Shown here piece by piece: positions 24,026 to 50,545 of a stretch of DNA of 64,000 nucleotides (position 1 is the first letter of the stretch; each line of letters starts with the position of its first letter). The translations under genes were made by a program, and so were the position numbers. The notes under the pieces were generated by a model. It did no database searches and was not told the DNA's origin. It worked only from the letters and a program-made list of their open reading frames with translations. The DNA comes from Psychrobacillus sp. NEAU-3TGS (lineage in GTDB: Bacteria > Bacillota > Bacilli > Bacillales_A > Planococcaceae), in assembly GCF_029955155.1 (NCBI RefSeq), contig NZ_JAPNOZ010000011.1, positions 248,001 through 312,000 on the forward strand. The letters run 5' to 3'.

Positions 24026-24381
24026 TATATTCCACCTCATTAATTTTATATCAATTACGCCTTGGCGTAATCACATCCAGTTTTTGAATTGTGGCTAACA
24101 GGATGTTGGTCATGCTCCTGCGGTTACTCGTCGCAGAAAGACATTGCAGTCGTTGCGACAGGACGTCGCGAAATGAGACTGCCTTCCTTAACTTCTTTCA
24201 AAATCTGTAACATCCGCCGGAGGCTTTAATTTTTTCAGCAGAAGCGAAACACTTCTGCTGAAAAAGTTAAAAATACTTTCATAAGTATAGCATAACTAAG
24301 GGCTAGAGCGAATTCAAAATGACTTTTCCAAGAAACTTCGCTATAATTAAAGAACAGATGTTTGAACAAGGAGAGATTGTT
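24026..24381. other. Divergent cymR-rarA gap with two hairpin repeats
   Basis: Holds two structured elements and no ORF I can support. The first, 24146-24182, has outer arms GCAGTC/GACTGC and inner arms GCGAC/GTCGC around AGGAC; it shares ACAGGACGTCGCG with the element at 5675-5771. The second, 24231-24265, is a 14-bp perfect stem (TTTTTCAGCAGAAG and complement, 7-base loop) with T runs on both sides. A terminator-like hairpin between two divergent starts is unexpected and fits a dispersed repeat better than a terminator. Confidence 0.5.
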
Positions 24382-25668
24382 TTGAGCAACGAACCTTTAG
24401 CATATCGTATGAGACCACAAACGATTGATGAAATTGCAGGACAGCAGCATGTTATCGGAAAAGATACTGCTTTATATAAAATGATAAAAAATGGTCACGT
24501 CCCTTCTATGCTTTTATATGGAGATCCTGGAGTAGGAAAAACTTCGCTAGCCTTTGCAATTGCAGGAACGACAAAGCTACCTTTGTAGCTCTCAATGCAA
24601 CGAAAGCCGGGAAAAAAGATGTAGAAGAGGTTGTAGCAGATGCACGCATTAGCGGCAAAGTGATTTTATTTTTAGATGAAATTCACAGATTCAACAAATT
24701 GCAACAGGATACCCTTCTTCCACATGTAGAAAATGGATCAATTATTTTGATTGGGGCTACTACCGAAAATCCATTTCATGATGTGAACCCCGCGATCCGC
24801 TCACGCTGTGGGGAAATTAAACAGCTAAAACGGCTTACAACCGAAGATGTGGACAAGCTTTTAGAGCGAGCTTTGCTTGATAATGATAAAGGGTTAGGAA
24901 AAATGGCCATTGCCATTACTGACGAACAACGAAAAAAAAATAGCGGACGCCGCCAATGGAGATGCTAGAAAAGCATTAACTTTATTAGAATCTACTATTT
25001 TTGCAAGCTTTGAAGAAGATGGTGTGACAACAGTTGAAGATAGTATATTGAACAGCTTAGTGGACCGAGTCGGAGTTTTTGGTGATAAGAAAGGATCACA
25101 TTTCTATAATTTACTATCCGCTTTGCAAAAATCAGTCCGAGGAAGCGACACGGATGCAGCGCTATATTATTTAGCTCATTTACTTGAAAACGGAGATTTA
25201 GTTGCAGTTTCTAGAAGGTTACTCGTTATGAGCTACGAAGATATTGGTCTTGCAAATCCTTCCGTTGGGCCACAAGTTCTCGCAGCAATTCAGTCAGCAG
25301 AGAGACTTGGATTACCAGAAGCTCGCATCCCATTAGCAAATGCAGTTGTACTGATGTGTTTATCAGAGAAATCCAATTCAGCGTATTCAGCCCTCGATTC
25401 TGCAATCGCAAGTATTCACGCTGGGAAAACCGGGGAAATACCAAAACATTTAAAGGATACCCATTATGCTGGAGCAGCTGAACTTGGACACGGTGGCTAT
25501 ATATATCCGCATGACCATAAAATCGGCACTTTTGGTGGTTGGGTAAACCAAACATATTTACCAGATAATTTAGTCGGAACCAGATTTTATGAGCCGGTTG
25601 AAGCAGGTGAAGAAAAACGGTTAGCTGCTATCTATAATCGTTTAGAAAAGTTTAAAACAGAAAAATAG
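24382..25668 (+). CDS. rarA: Replication-associated recombination protein RarA, two apparent frameshifts
   Basis: AAA+ ATPase acting at stalled replication forks with RecA and SSB. TTG 24382 is chosen (AAGGAGAG seven bases upstream). Seen in order: Walker [18 protein letters not shown], then a stop at 24586 where CCTTTG should read CCTTTTG (one T missing), then Walker [13 protein letters not shown] and sensor LIGATTENP, then a +1 in the A9 run at 24932-24940 (A8 restores [23 protein letters not shown]), then the C-terminal tetramerisation domain ([27 protein letters not shown]). Repaired length is 428 residues, normal for RarA. Confidence 0.92.
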
Positions 25669-25673
25669 TGATT

Positions 25674-25705
25674 AAACCCAGATTCGTGCTAATCTGGGTT
25701 TTTAA
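25674..25705 (+). terminator. Rho-independent terminator after rarA
   Basis: AAACCCAGATT and AATCTGGGTTT form an 11-bp stem around CGTGCT, followed by a T-rich tail, starting 5 bp after the rarA stop. Confidence 0.9.
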
Positions 25706-25790: not shown

Positions 25791-25921
25791 TTCCATAAAA
25801 ATGGATATTACAACTAAGTATAGATTTTTTACAACTAAACAGCTCTATATTCCAACTAAAACTCAAATTATTCCAACTAACTGAATTTCTATCAAAAAAA
25901 GCAGCTTACAAGATGCTTTTT
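25791..25921. repeat. CAACTAA 21-bp phased array, copy A, with hairpin
   Basis: CAACTAA starts at 25811, 25832, 25853 and 25874, an exact 21-bp step. The units are A/T-rich and otherwise variable. The array is preceded by TTCCATAAAAATGGATATTA and followed by CTGAATTTCT and a hairpin, AAAAAGCA with TGCTTTTT (25894-25921). The same frame of flanks and hairpin is repeated in copy B, about 177 bp downstream. It lies after the rarA terminator. No coding potential is evident. Function unknown. Confidence 0.75.
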
Positions 25922-25967
25922 ATTATGACTGAATGCACTCTATCTATGACAGGATATGTCATTAAAG

Positions 25968-26079
25968 TTCCATAAAAATGGATATTACAACTAAATATGC
26001 ATTTTTTACAACTAAAGCGATGTTTTTCCAACTAAACAGCACCATTTTCCAACTAAAACTCAAATTATTCCAACTAACT
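25968..26079. repeat. CAACTAA 21-bp phased array, copy B
   Basis: CAACTAA starts at 25988, 26009, 26029, 26050 and 26071 (steps 21, 20, 21, 21). Flanks match copy A: TTCCATAAAAATGGATATTA before and CTGAATTTCT after. Copy A is missing one unit compared with this copy, so units have been gained or lost whole. The array ends 12 bp before the terminator hairpin shared with the small basic gene at 26142. Confidence 0.75.
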
Positions 26080-26090
26080 GAATTTCTCAC

Positions 26091-26132
26091 AAAAAAGCAC
26101 CGCATGAGATGTTTCTCATGCGGTGCTTTTTG
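26091..26132 (-). terminator. Terminator hairpin after the small basic gene
   Basis: A long stem, AAAAAAGCACCGCATGAGA with TCTCATGCGGTGCTTTTT around TGTT, has T runs in both directions and may act on both strands. It lies 9 bp after the stop of the minus-strand gene at 26142-26336. Confidence 0.85.
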
Positions 26133-26141
26133 GATATACGA

Positions 26142-26336
26142 TTACACACCCATTTTACGGCGTGTATTGCTTACTTTTTTCGTCATTTGGCTTTTTGCTT
26201 TTTGGTTAGCCGACTTGCCATTTGCTTGGGCTTTGCCACCACTCGCTTGGTTTTTCTTTTCTTCTAGCTTTTGTTTCACTGCTTCTTGCAAAGACATTTT
26301 CTTTTTAGGTGCTTCTTGATTAGTCGATTCTGTCAT
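26142..26336 (-). CDS. Small basic, low-complexity protein, unrecognised
   Basis: A 64-residue product very rich in Lys, Gln, Ala and Asn, with no hydrophobic core or membrane segment; it looks disordered and could bind nucleic acid, but that is a guess. Blocks: KKKMSLQEAVKQKLEEKK (a possible helix) and SQMTKKVSNTRRKMGV at the C terminus. GAGAGGG seven bases before the ATG and a strong terminator after the stop support a real gene. The upstream neighbour is tcdA, 67 bp away on the same strand. I do not recognise the family. Confidence 0.75.
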   Translation of the reverse strand: MTESTNQEAPKKKMSLQEAVKQKLEEKKNQASGGKAQANGKSANQKAKSQMTKKVSNTRRKMGV

Positions 26337-49738: not shown

Positions 49739-50545
49739 TTAAAAGTGGTGGTGATGGTGGTATGGTGGGCATGGATATACCGGTACATAACAAATCTGGA
49801 CGCATGGGCAACCACCATAATGTGCTTGCATATGTGGGTGCATACCCGGATGCATTTGTGGGTACATACATGGGTACATATAGGAAAAATCTTGTTCTGG
49901 CGGGCATGGATACATTTCTTCGAATACAGGGGACGGCTCTTGCGCTATTGGTTGCGTTTGTTGAACTGGTGGTGCTGGCGGCGGCGGTGCTGGTTTTTCA
50001 CGCTCCGTAAAATTTGCTTGAATATGAATAGATGTTGACTCCACTAGTCTCCAGCCTTGTGGAGATGGGGTCATATCTAAGTCTGGAACTGGCATCATGT
50101 GATATGGCAAAGAATAAGATGGAATCGGTTGCGGTCTAACAGGTGGTGCTGGCGGTGGTACAATTGGGACCGGTTGCACCGGTTGAGCTTTGGGTGGTAC
50201 CTGTTGTGCTTTTGGCGGTACCGGCTGTGCCTTCGGTGGCATCTGTTGTGCTTTTGGCGGAACTTGTTGTGCCTTCGGTGGTACCTGTTGAGCTTTTGGT
50301 GGAACAGCGTGCGGCTTCATTTCCTCCTTCTTCACCATTTCTTTTTTAACTGGGCGATTCTCGCTATATGGATGATTGACGGATTCCATGTTTTTTGTAT
50401 CTGGAATAAATATCTTCATACCCGGAACGATGTATTCCGGATTTGCGAGATGTGCATTTAATCTTTTTAATTCTTCAAAAGAAACACCGTAGCTTCGTGA
50501 AATTTTCCATAGCGTGTCACCTTTTTCGACAATATGAATTTGCAC
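49739..50545 (-). CDS. safA: SafA-like LysM spore coat morphogenetic protein
   Basis: A 268-residue protein with one N-terminal LysM domain (about residues 2-50: IHIVEKGDTLWKISRSYG ... YIVPGMKIFIP), as in SafA, which guides inner coat assembly and binds spore peptidoglycan. Next are about six tandem PPKAQ(Q/P)V heptapeptides (about 80-125) encoded by 21-bp repeats, a Pro-rich middle, and a Met/Cys/His/Pro-rich tail (MYPCMYPQMHPGMHPHM, then GGCPC and five His before the final Phe). The start is GTG 50545 with AAGGAGGAAG upstream. SpoVID has its LysM at the C terminus, so it fits less well. Confidence 0.85.
   Translation of the reverse strand: MQIHIVEKGDTLWKISRSYGVSFEELKRLNAHLANPEYIVPGMKIFIPDTKNMESVNHPYSENRPVKKEMVKKEEMKPHAVPPKAQQVPPKAQQVPPKAQQMPPKAQPVPPKAQQVPPKAQPVQPVPIVPPPAPPVRPQPIPSYSLPYHMMPVPDLDMTPSPQGWRLVESTSIHIQANFTEREKPAPPPPAPPVQQTQPIAQEPSPVFEEMYPCPPEQDFSYMYPCMYPQMHPGMHPHMQAHYGGCPCVQICYVPVYPCPPYHHHHHF

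Follow-up and report, generated by a model that had tools for sequence, protein, structure and literature searches.

The CAACTAA arrays described here belong to a large and apparently undescribed family of DNA arrays that lie near gene ends in Psychrobacillus and its relatives. Our confidence that the family is real and that its motif is constrained is very high. In the open-access literature searched we found no description of the motif, of its reverse, of 21-bp repeats of this kind or of such repeats in Psychrobacillus or Planococcus. Judging from their sequence, we tentatively suggest that the arrays are sites for a cooperative DNA-binding protein that would act as a barrier or anchor at gene ends.

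The two arrays and their surroundings

The window, that is, the whole stretch of 64,000 nucleotides from Psychrobacillus sp. NEAU-3TGS that was analysed, contains two neighbouring arrays (Table 1). All nine CAACTAA motifs reported by the sequence-only reading are present on the forward strand, at 25811, 25832, 25853 and 25874 in copy A and at 25988, 26009, 26029, 26050 and 26071 in copy B. The exact 21-bp step claimed for them holds for all steps but one, a step of 20 bp in array B. On both strands together the window has 26 copies of CAACTAA, while 100 shuffles gave a mean of 12.3 and none reached 26. The two copies had been said to share both flanks; the identity extends for 20 bp on the upstream side and 10 bp on the downstream side, and farther out the flanks are similar. 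The further statement that the copies differ by one whole unit also holds, copy A being without one unit of copy B. Each copy comprises leader, array and tail, the whole having been duplicated in tandem, and the weak hairpin 3' of array A is possibly a remnant of a duplicated terminator. At the rarA locus of a close relative species (G005) there are three array copies, of 2, 5 and 5 units, and copy A has therefore probably lost one unit. Neither array of the window was reported by Tandem Repeats Finder at a score of 30; a standard tandem repeat finder misses such arrays, since no more than about half of the unit is conserved.

Table 1. Features in and around the two arrays, in window coordinates
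Feature	Position	Strand	Basis
Intrinsic terminator of the rarA/mgsA gene, upstream border	25674..25701	+	Terminator scan and sequence
Leader inverted repeat CCATAAAAATGG, copy A, ending 6 bp ahead of the first motif	25793..25804	+	Sequence; weak
Array A, four CAACTAA, steps 21, 21, 21	25811..25880	+	Motif search
Weak hairpin 3' of array A	25900..25917	+	Read by eye in sequence
Leader inverted repeat CCATAAAAATGG, copy B	25970..25981	+	Sequence
Array B, five CAACTAA, steps 21, 20, 21, 21	25988..26077	+	Motif search
Bidirectional terminator-like hairpin, A-run 26091-26096, T-run 26127-26131, common to the converging gene	26097..26126	.	Sequence; absent from the terminator scan listing
Converging 64-aa ORF, 3' end towards the array	26142..26336	-	ORF list

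The earlier placing of the arrays between terminators is borne out, and promoter-like sites there are at chance level (2 found, 3.1 expected). The converging 64-aa ORF had no match in a Pfam search. A ThiF-family gene lies beyond it on the downstream side of the arrays, and in the relatives read a stretch resembling the ORF adjoins tcdA. The rarA/mgsA gene falls into three ORFs (24319-24588, 24660-24968 and 24910-25668, together 24319-25668 of the window) and is therefore either a pseudogene or affected by sequencing errors; in G005 this locus has a single upstream ORF of about 450 codons. Elsewhere in the window, at 50171-50305, there is a repeat of period 21/42/63 that is probably coding and seems unrelated to the arrays.

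A genome-wide family of phased arrays

Nineteen genomes of the genus were compared, G000 being the window's own genome. Throughout G000, CAACTAA occurs in 76 pairs at a step of 19-23 bp (51 and 25 on the two strands), against no pair on either strand for the reversed motif at the same step, and this whole-genome control rules out chance as well as a purely local duplication. The pairs group into about 23 clusters, one of which (L035) is a locus of another dialect. The proposal that the motifs all face the same side of the DNA is supported by the 22 other loci, in which 65 of the 74 distances of up to 70 bp between neighbouring exact motifs are 21 bp, the rest being 20 bp (three), 22 bp (one) and 42 bp (five). 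A motif-blind scan of 22 fetched loci found 24 four-unit arrays at period 21, including one in a new dialect, and two at period 30; periods 15-20 and 22-29 gave none. The Psychrobacillus loci examined contain 97 distinct arrays of at least three units: 15 with three, 49 with four and 33 with five. A few arrays in other loci have six or seven. In two complete genomes, 19 clusters lean towards the origin-proximal half of the chromosome, the origin being placed by dnaA (one-sided KS p = 0.005 pooled, 0.024 for G009 and 0.15 for G003), a bias that is weak because it was spotted after the fact.

The unit consensus over 219 distinct spacers is CAACTAA-A-Y-N-N-N-Y-C-A-WWW-TT-M; about 10 bp of each 21 are conserved. 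The WWW of the A-tract ahead of the motif is AAA or TTT and rarely mixed. A-rich and T-rich tracts alternate in neighbouring spacers in 95 cases, compared with 66 in shuffles, which can be explained by shared ancestry. The first motif is mostly preceded by T-W-T-T and then C or A. A short inverted repeat in the leader (CCAnnnnnnTGG or GGATAnnnTATCC) is suggestive. Of all pairs of leader columns that were tested, -18 with -7 came out best, with complementary bases in 28 of 53 non-redundant leaders where 14 are expected, a weak signal. A coding heptapeptide repeat was rejected, since the units of 20 and 22 bp disrupt the reading frame; many units of the Planococcus dialect also place a stop, as judged by eye, in the corresponding reverse frame. 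Long ORFs across arrays (L026, L271) occur because the 21-bp step keeps a frame open, and at L026 an ORF of 174 aa runs through the array.

Constraint on the motif and drift of the spacers

The constraint was measured between G000 and G005, which share 19 orthologous array loci. The main count covers 18 of them, L023 having been dropped for misaligned arrays; 26 gapped units were dropped as well. Differences in these loci affect 15 of 567 motif positions (2.6%), 120 of 456 positions in the first eight bases of the spacers (26%), 249 of 2076 positions of the intergenic flanks (12.0%) and 2 of 114 positions of the TT before the motif. For comparison, the genes beside 16 of the loci differ at 2551 of 18292 third codon positions (13.9%) and at 645 of 36587 first and second codon positions (1.8%). 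With L023 retained, the counts are 30 of 616 for the motif and 146 of 496 for the spacer. The motif count is biased because the motif was the search key in G000; when the arrays are defined on G005 instead, 20 of 553 motif positions differ (3.6%) and 124 of 464 spacer positions, a motif rate that is far under the flank rate and under half of the spacer rate. It had been suggested that the motif is under selection and the spacers vary, and these figures agree with that view.

The excess of change in the spacers sits in 14 of 57, those with at least four changes, and transversions are commoner overall. Spacers with no more than three changes, a selected subset, differ by 12.3%, like the flanks. 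The excess had looked like diversification of the spacers; on this ground we read it as unit turnover. Changed spacers come no nearer than unchanged ones to those of other arrays (3.1 against 2.9 mismatches), which gives no sign of copying between arrays. The turnover of units that had been proposed is evident in gains and losses of 21 or 42 bp at a time, L030 and L032 being examples, and in the difference between copies A and B. The motif is thus constrained, while the spacers drift and the units turn over.

Place relative to genes

By mechanical ORF calls the arrays are intergenic, save for ORFs that pass through the arrays themselves. In 20 of the 23 clusters the next gene in the CAACTAA sense converges on the array, one of these (L040) resting on a 62-aa ORF and being classed otherwise in another ORF pass. 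The end of the converging gene is 36-115 bp from the array in 18 of the 20; in the remaining two it lies at 6 bp and, in the window, at 326 bp, a distance that arises because the 64-aa ORF was not called. Often a terminator-like hairpin can be seen by eye between the array and the converging gene. Among 63 TTM arrays 48 face a converging gene and two lie in divergent gaps; of 271 gaps with a length of at least 100 bp, 60 are divergent. This count pools orthologous copies from loci of several species and uses mechanical ORFs, a few of them wrongly called. In Planococcus, the upstream gene is co-directional in six of six arrays of the CCGCAACTAA type. This variation among dialects in orientation relative to genes counts against our best explanation. 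A Pfam scan of 30 neighbouring stretches gave a match in 25, mostly to housekeeping proteins (ValRS, LeuRS, SecA, EF-P, ferrochelatase, YebC and others) and also to a TetR regulator and a histidine kinase; the 30 stretches have no common theme, no evident partner gene and no cas, transposase or rep gene.

The hairpin that often stands 3' of the array in the CAACTAA sense, and that could stop transcription both ways, is what might be expected of a small RNA gene running from the leader to a shared terminator, in which the four or five CAACUAA would be a sponge that takes up either an RNA or an RNA-binding protein. The CAACTAA-sense strand is also G-poor and unstructured, as such an RNA might be. 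We nevertheless think a small RNA very improbable. The 21-base step resembles a constraint of the DNA helix rather than of RNA, promoter-like sites at the window locus do not exceed chance, and the orientation relative to genes changes with the dialect. RNAalifold gave 0.0 kcal and no fold for 39 four-unit and 26 five-unit aligned elements, and Rfam had no match over the arrays of eight loci at the gathering threshold, its four matches in the window all being sub-threshold. A structured RNA was rejected on the absent conserved fold and the lack of an Rfam match at threshold over the arrays. A Rho-type C-rich, G-poor RNA site was also rejected, as it fits the TTM dialect alone among the dialect sequences read.

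Dialects and their distribution

The 21-bp step is common to several dialects found in Psychrobacillus and Planococcus. The window's own dialect, TTMCAACTAA, is found in Paenisporosarcina-type g12 genomes as well, and the GAGAG/GAAAG-CAACYAA dialect has a conserved leader and tail of its own. The CCGCAACTAA dialect of Planococcus has GCG ahead of the last unit in 7 of the 13 arrays read, and a CCGCACCYCA dialect, with up to nine units, lies beside CCGCAACTAA arrays in the intergenic regions read. One Neobacillus locus has three units of ATCCGCAACTAA. In the window's genome (L022:1200-1470) a GAGAG-CAACYAA array on the forward strand is followed about 60 bp later by a CGCAACRTT array on the opposite strand, so that two dialects, both with the 21-bp step, stand head to head. 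In a Planococcus intergenic region (L261:7590-8140, L263:9600-10080) CCGCAACTAA and CCGCACCYCA arrays are adjacent, and in the same gap of G136 a CCGCACCYCA array of nine units occurs alone.

Arrays missing or out of phase in close relatives had been named as an outcome that would refute the sequence-only reading, and this was half borne out. At the locus of the two arrays a CAACTAA array is present in G000 and G005, two of the 19 genomes of the genus; at this rarA locus G008 has an array of another dialect, and the other 16 genomes have neither dialect in the 900-1000 bases read, a length that does not always extend to rarA. At other loci phased pairs are widespread in the genus: 13 of the 19 genomes have a match, two of these a single one, with up to 90 pairs per genome, while the reversed control gives 0-2 per genome (1-2 in seven genomes). 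Eight of the 19 have no pair or one chance-like pair, and no CAACYAA triple occurs in these array-poor genomes, so the function is dispensable. Array presence at single loci is unstable between species, and both points count against our best explanation; among the loci listed, the L041 array is absent in G010 and G008 and the L026 array in G017. At L032, between Na+/H+ antiporter and methyltransferase genes, an array is kept in G000, G005, G008, G010 and G017, with 2-5 units, differing spacers and intact motifs. At the ferrochelatase-side locus L335 (G010) there is a tandem amplification to at least five whole elements. In array-poor genomes the gap at the rarA locus (L219, L226 and others) holds other dispersed repeats, GCTCCTGCGCAAAGCTCGTCGCAG and GGCGACTCC-rich pieces, which are perhaps REP-like.

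Over 261 genomes of the family, the CAACYAA triple matches in 34, belonging to 6 of 19 genera, and the GCAMCYMA triple in 30. The reversed control of the former matches in 10 of the 261, with most matches in G062 (15, against 1 forward), and that of the latter in 5 (G144 with 26 and 29, G203 with 8). Given these control matches, the matches in g8 and g17 were left out of the array claims. The clear relatives among the named-genome matches listed are from Psychrobacillus, Paenisporosarcina, Planococcus and one Neobacillus; the listed matches also include some outside Bacillales that are not heptamer repeats.

The filled and empty sites between species and the patchy presence among genomes are features of a spreading repeat. 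The arrays might accordingly be non-autonomous, REP- or MITE-like mobile elements with no host role, copies of which spread to terminator flanks and whose motif is retained because it is required by an enzyme, either element-borne or domesticated. Whole elements are tandemly duplicated, the GAGAG dialect has its conserved leader and tail, and 18 of the 19 genomes of the genus have Y1 transposase-like genes, 1-3 in each, with open frames of 192-290 aa and, in addition, three fragments; all this would suit such an origin. Against it, the Y1 genes occur irrespective of arrays, being found in seven of the eight array-poor genomes, and Mu/TnsB-type genes, present in 10 of the 19 genomes (7 of 11 array-bearing and 3 of 8 array-poor), do not track the arrays either, array-rich G008 having none. 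No target duplication was seen by eye in the sites shown, the array of L032 has been kept in five species while its spacers diverged, and the copies shared by G000 and G005 retain a constrained motif. We regard a mobile repeat without host role as unlikely. A Tn7/TnsB transposon end was rejected, PF09299 being absent from G008 and present in three of the eight array-poor genomes, and so were LytTR proteins, Y1 transposases and TnsB as required partners, which show no co-occurrence with the arrays. Viral contigs had no exact triple match of the TTM dialect, and blastn of the window stretch against phages and plasmids, where records near the window's genome may be omitted, gave no match; on these two results a phage or plasmid origin was rejected.

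Comparison with known repeat systems

CRISPR arrays have repeats of about 23-50 bp, unique spacers and cas genes; here the conserved part is about 10 of 21 bp and the neighbouring stretches carry no cas gene, so this identity was rejected. Among the matches listed in the named-genome scan there are at least 266 CAACTAA heptamers in 7-bp tandem, in 118 stretches. Such repeated heptamers are known from cyanobacteria as STRR (short tandemly repeated repetitive) sequences. STRR resemble the arrays in having CAACTAA as a repeated heptamer, but there it recurs every 7 bp head to tail, whereas the arrays have one heptamer per 21 bp with free spacers, and the difference in period led us to reject this identity.

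Plasmid iterons are rows of initiator sites with a step of about two helical turns, and the DnaA box is TTATNCACA. The arrays are likewise rows of sites, but their motif is not a DnaA box, there are some 23 clusters per genome and the 30 neighbouring stretches scanned have no rep gene. In Bacillus subtilis, clusters of DnaA boxes are reported near oriC (PMC5295017).

The units of REP/BIME are palindromes, unlike the arrays, which are direct repeats of an asymmetric motif of 7-9 bp at a fixed helical step. REP/BIME sit at gene ends, bind gyrase and are associated with RAYT (Y1) transposases; the Y1 transposase genes of the genus do not track the arrays. No palindromic unit of 20-40 bp was found in the arrays, where the one hint is of a short inverted repeat in the leader. 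REP/BIME are dispersed, intergenic and present in many copies, as the arrays are, and reportedly bind several proteins (PMC2817692, PMC8266576).

The nearest geometric analogue is the operators of LytTR proteins. These proteins have 9-bp direct repeats with a gap of about 12 bp, and hence a 21-bp step, among them ACCACTTAC-12bp-ACCACTTAC and GCAACTTAG-11bp-GCAACTTGA, and the repeats stand in pairs some 10 bp ahead of a -35 box (PMC6193735). The LRS, AgrA and ComE type operators have 9-bp direct repeats at a step of 20-22 bp, the 21-bp step of the arrays agrees with the separation of 11-13 bp between the tabulated repeats, and the letters GCAACTTAG resemble GCAACTAA of the arrays (PMC6193735). 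This closeness in geometry and letters suggests that the arrays might be decoys for a LytTR-family regulator or its long-range regulatory sites, and GAGAG-type repeats, of 5 units in G008 and 2 units in G010, do stand behind one LytTR gene. The LytTR operators are, unlike the arrays, promoter pairs; the arrays are rows of four or five near terminators, have no linked regulator and face a converging gene in most clusters rather than standing about 10 bp upstream of a -35 box. Every one of the 19 genomes of the genus, array-bearing or array-poor, has LytTR domain genes, and their counts do not track array presence. No CAACYAA chain was found in 20 LytTR loci; a further set of 20, three of them repeats of earlier ones, had two with chains and three with weak period-21 signals, all behind the gene. 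An array in front of the gene was seen in none of the LytTR loci read. These LytTR results also count against our best explanation. With the pairs at promoters, the genes everywhere and no array in front of them, we therefore keep LytTR as an analogy, and as an explanation of the arrays it is improbable. The weak three-unit period-21 signals behind three LytTR genes (L381:1774, L390:1667, L372:1211) have other letters and are possibly further dialects or due to chance.

Possible role of the arrays

A sequence-specific DNA-binding protein is probably the reason for the arrays, as their sequence features suggest, and a barrier or anchor role at gene ends is less probable. Protein binding, its cooperativity and the barrier role we infer from the phasing, the constraint and the place of the arrays. 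An array would offer a row of mostly four or five direct-repeat sites (TT-M-CAACTAA-A here) two helical turns apart, on which copies of one sequence-specific protein could align along one side of the helix and bind cooperatively. A protein that binds on one face and touches its neighbours would select just such an arrangement, with a two-turn step and free spacers. The position of the arrays close to terminators, mostly between converging genes or behind a gene and rarely in divergent gaps, suggests a barrier or anchor. A filled array would most likely form a nucleoprotein barrier, a roadblock to read-through or antisense transcription, or else be an architectural anchor, as has been proposed for REP/BIME.

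We speculate further, and consider it doubtful, that the arrays form a chromosome-organising system of the Planococcaceae with several dialects, each with a co-evolving polymerising protein that would bind the direct repeats and insulate transcription units, with a lean towards the origin. If the arrays are bound by protein, they would allow a natural test, across the genome, of what helically phased nucleoprotein arrays do at the ends of genes, and the dialects offer a route to the binding protein through co-variation. The family would then add a direct-repeat counterpart of REP/BIME in Gram-positive bacteria.
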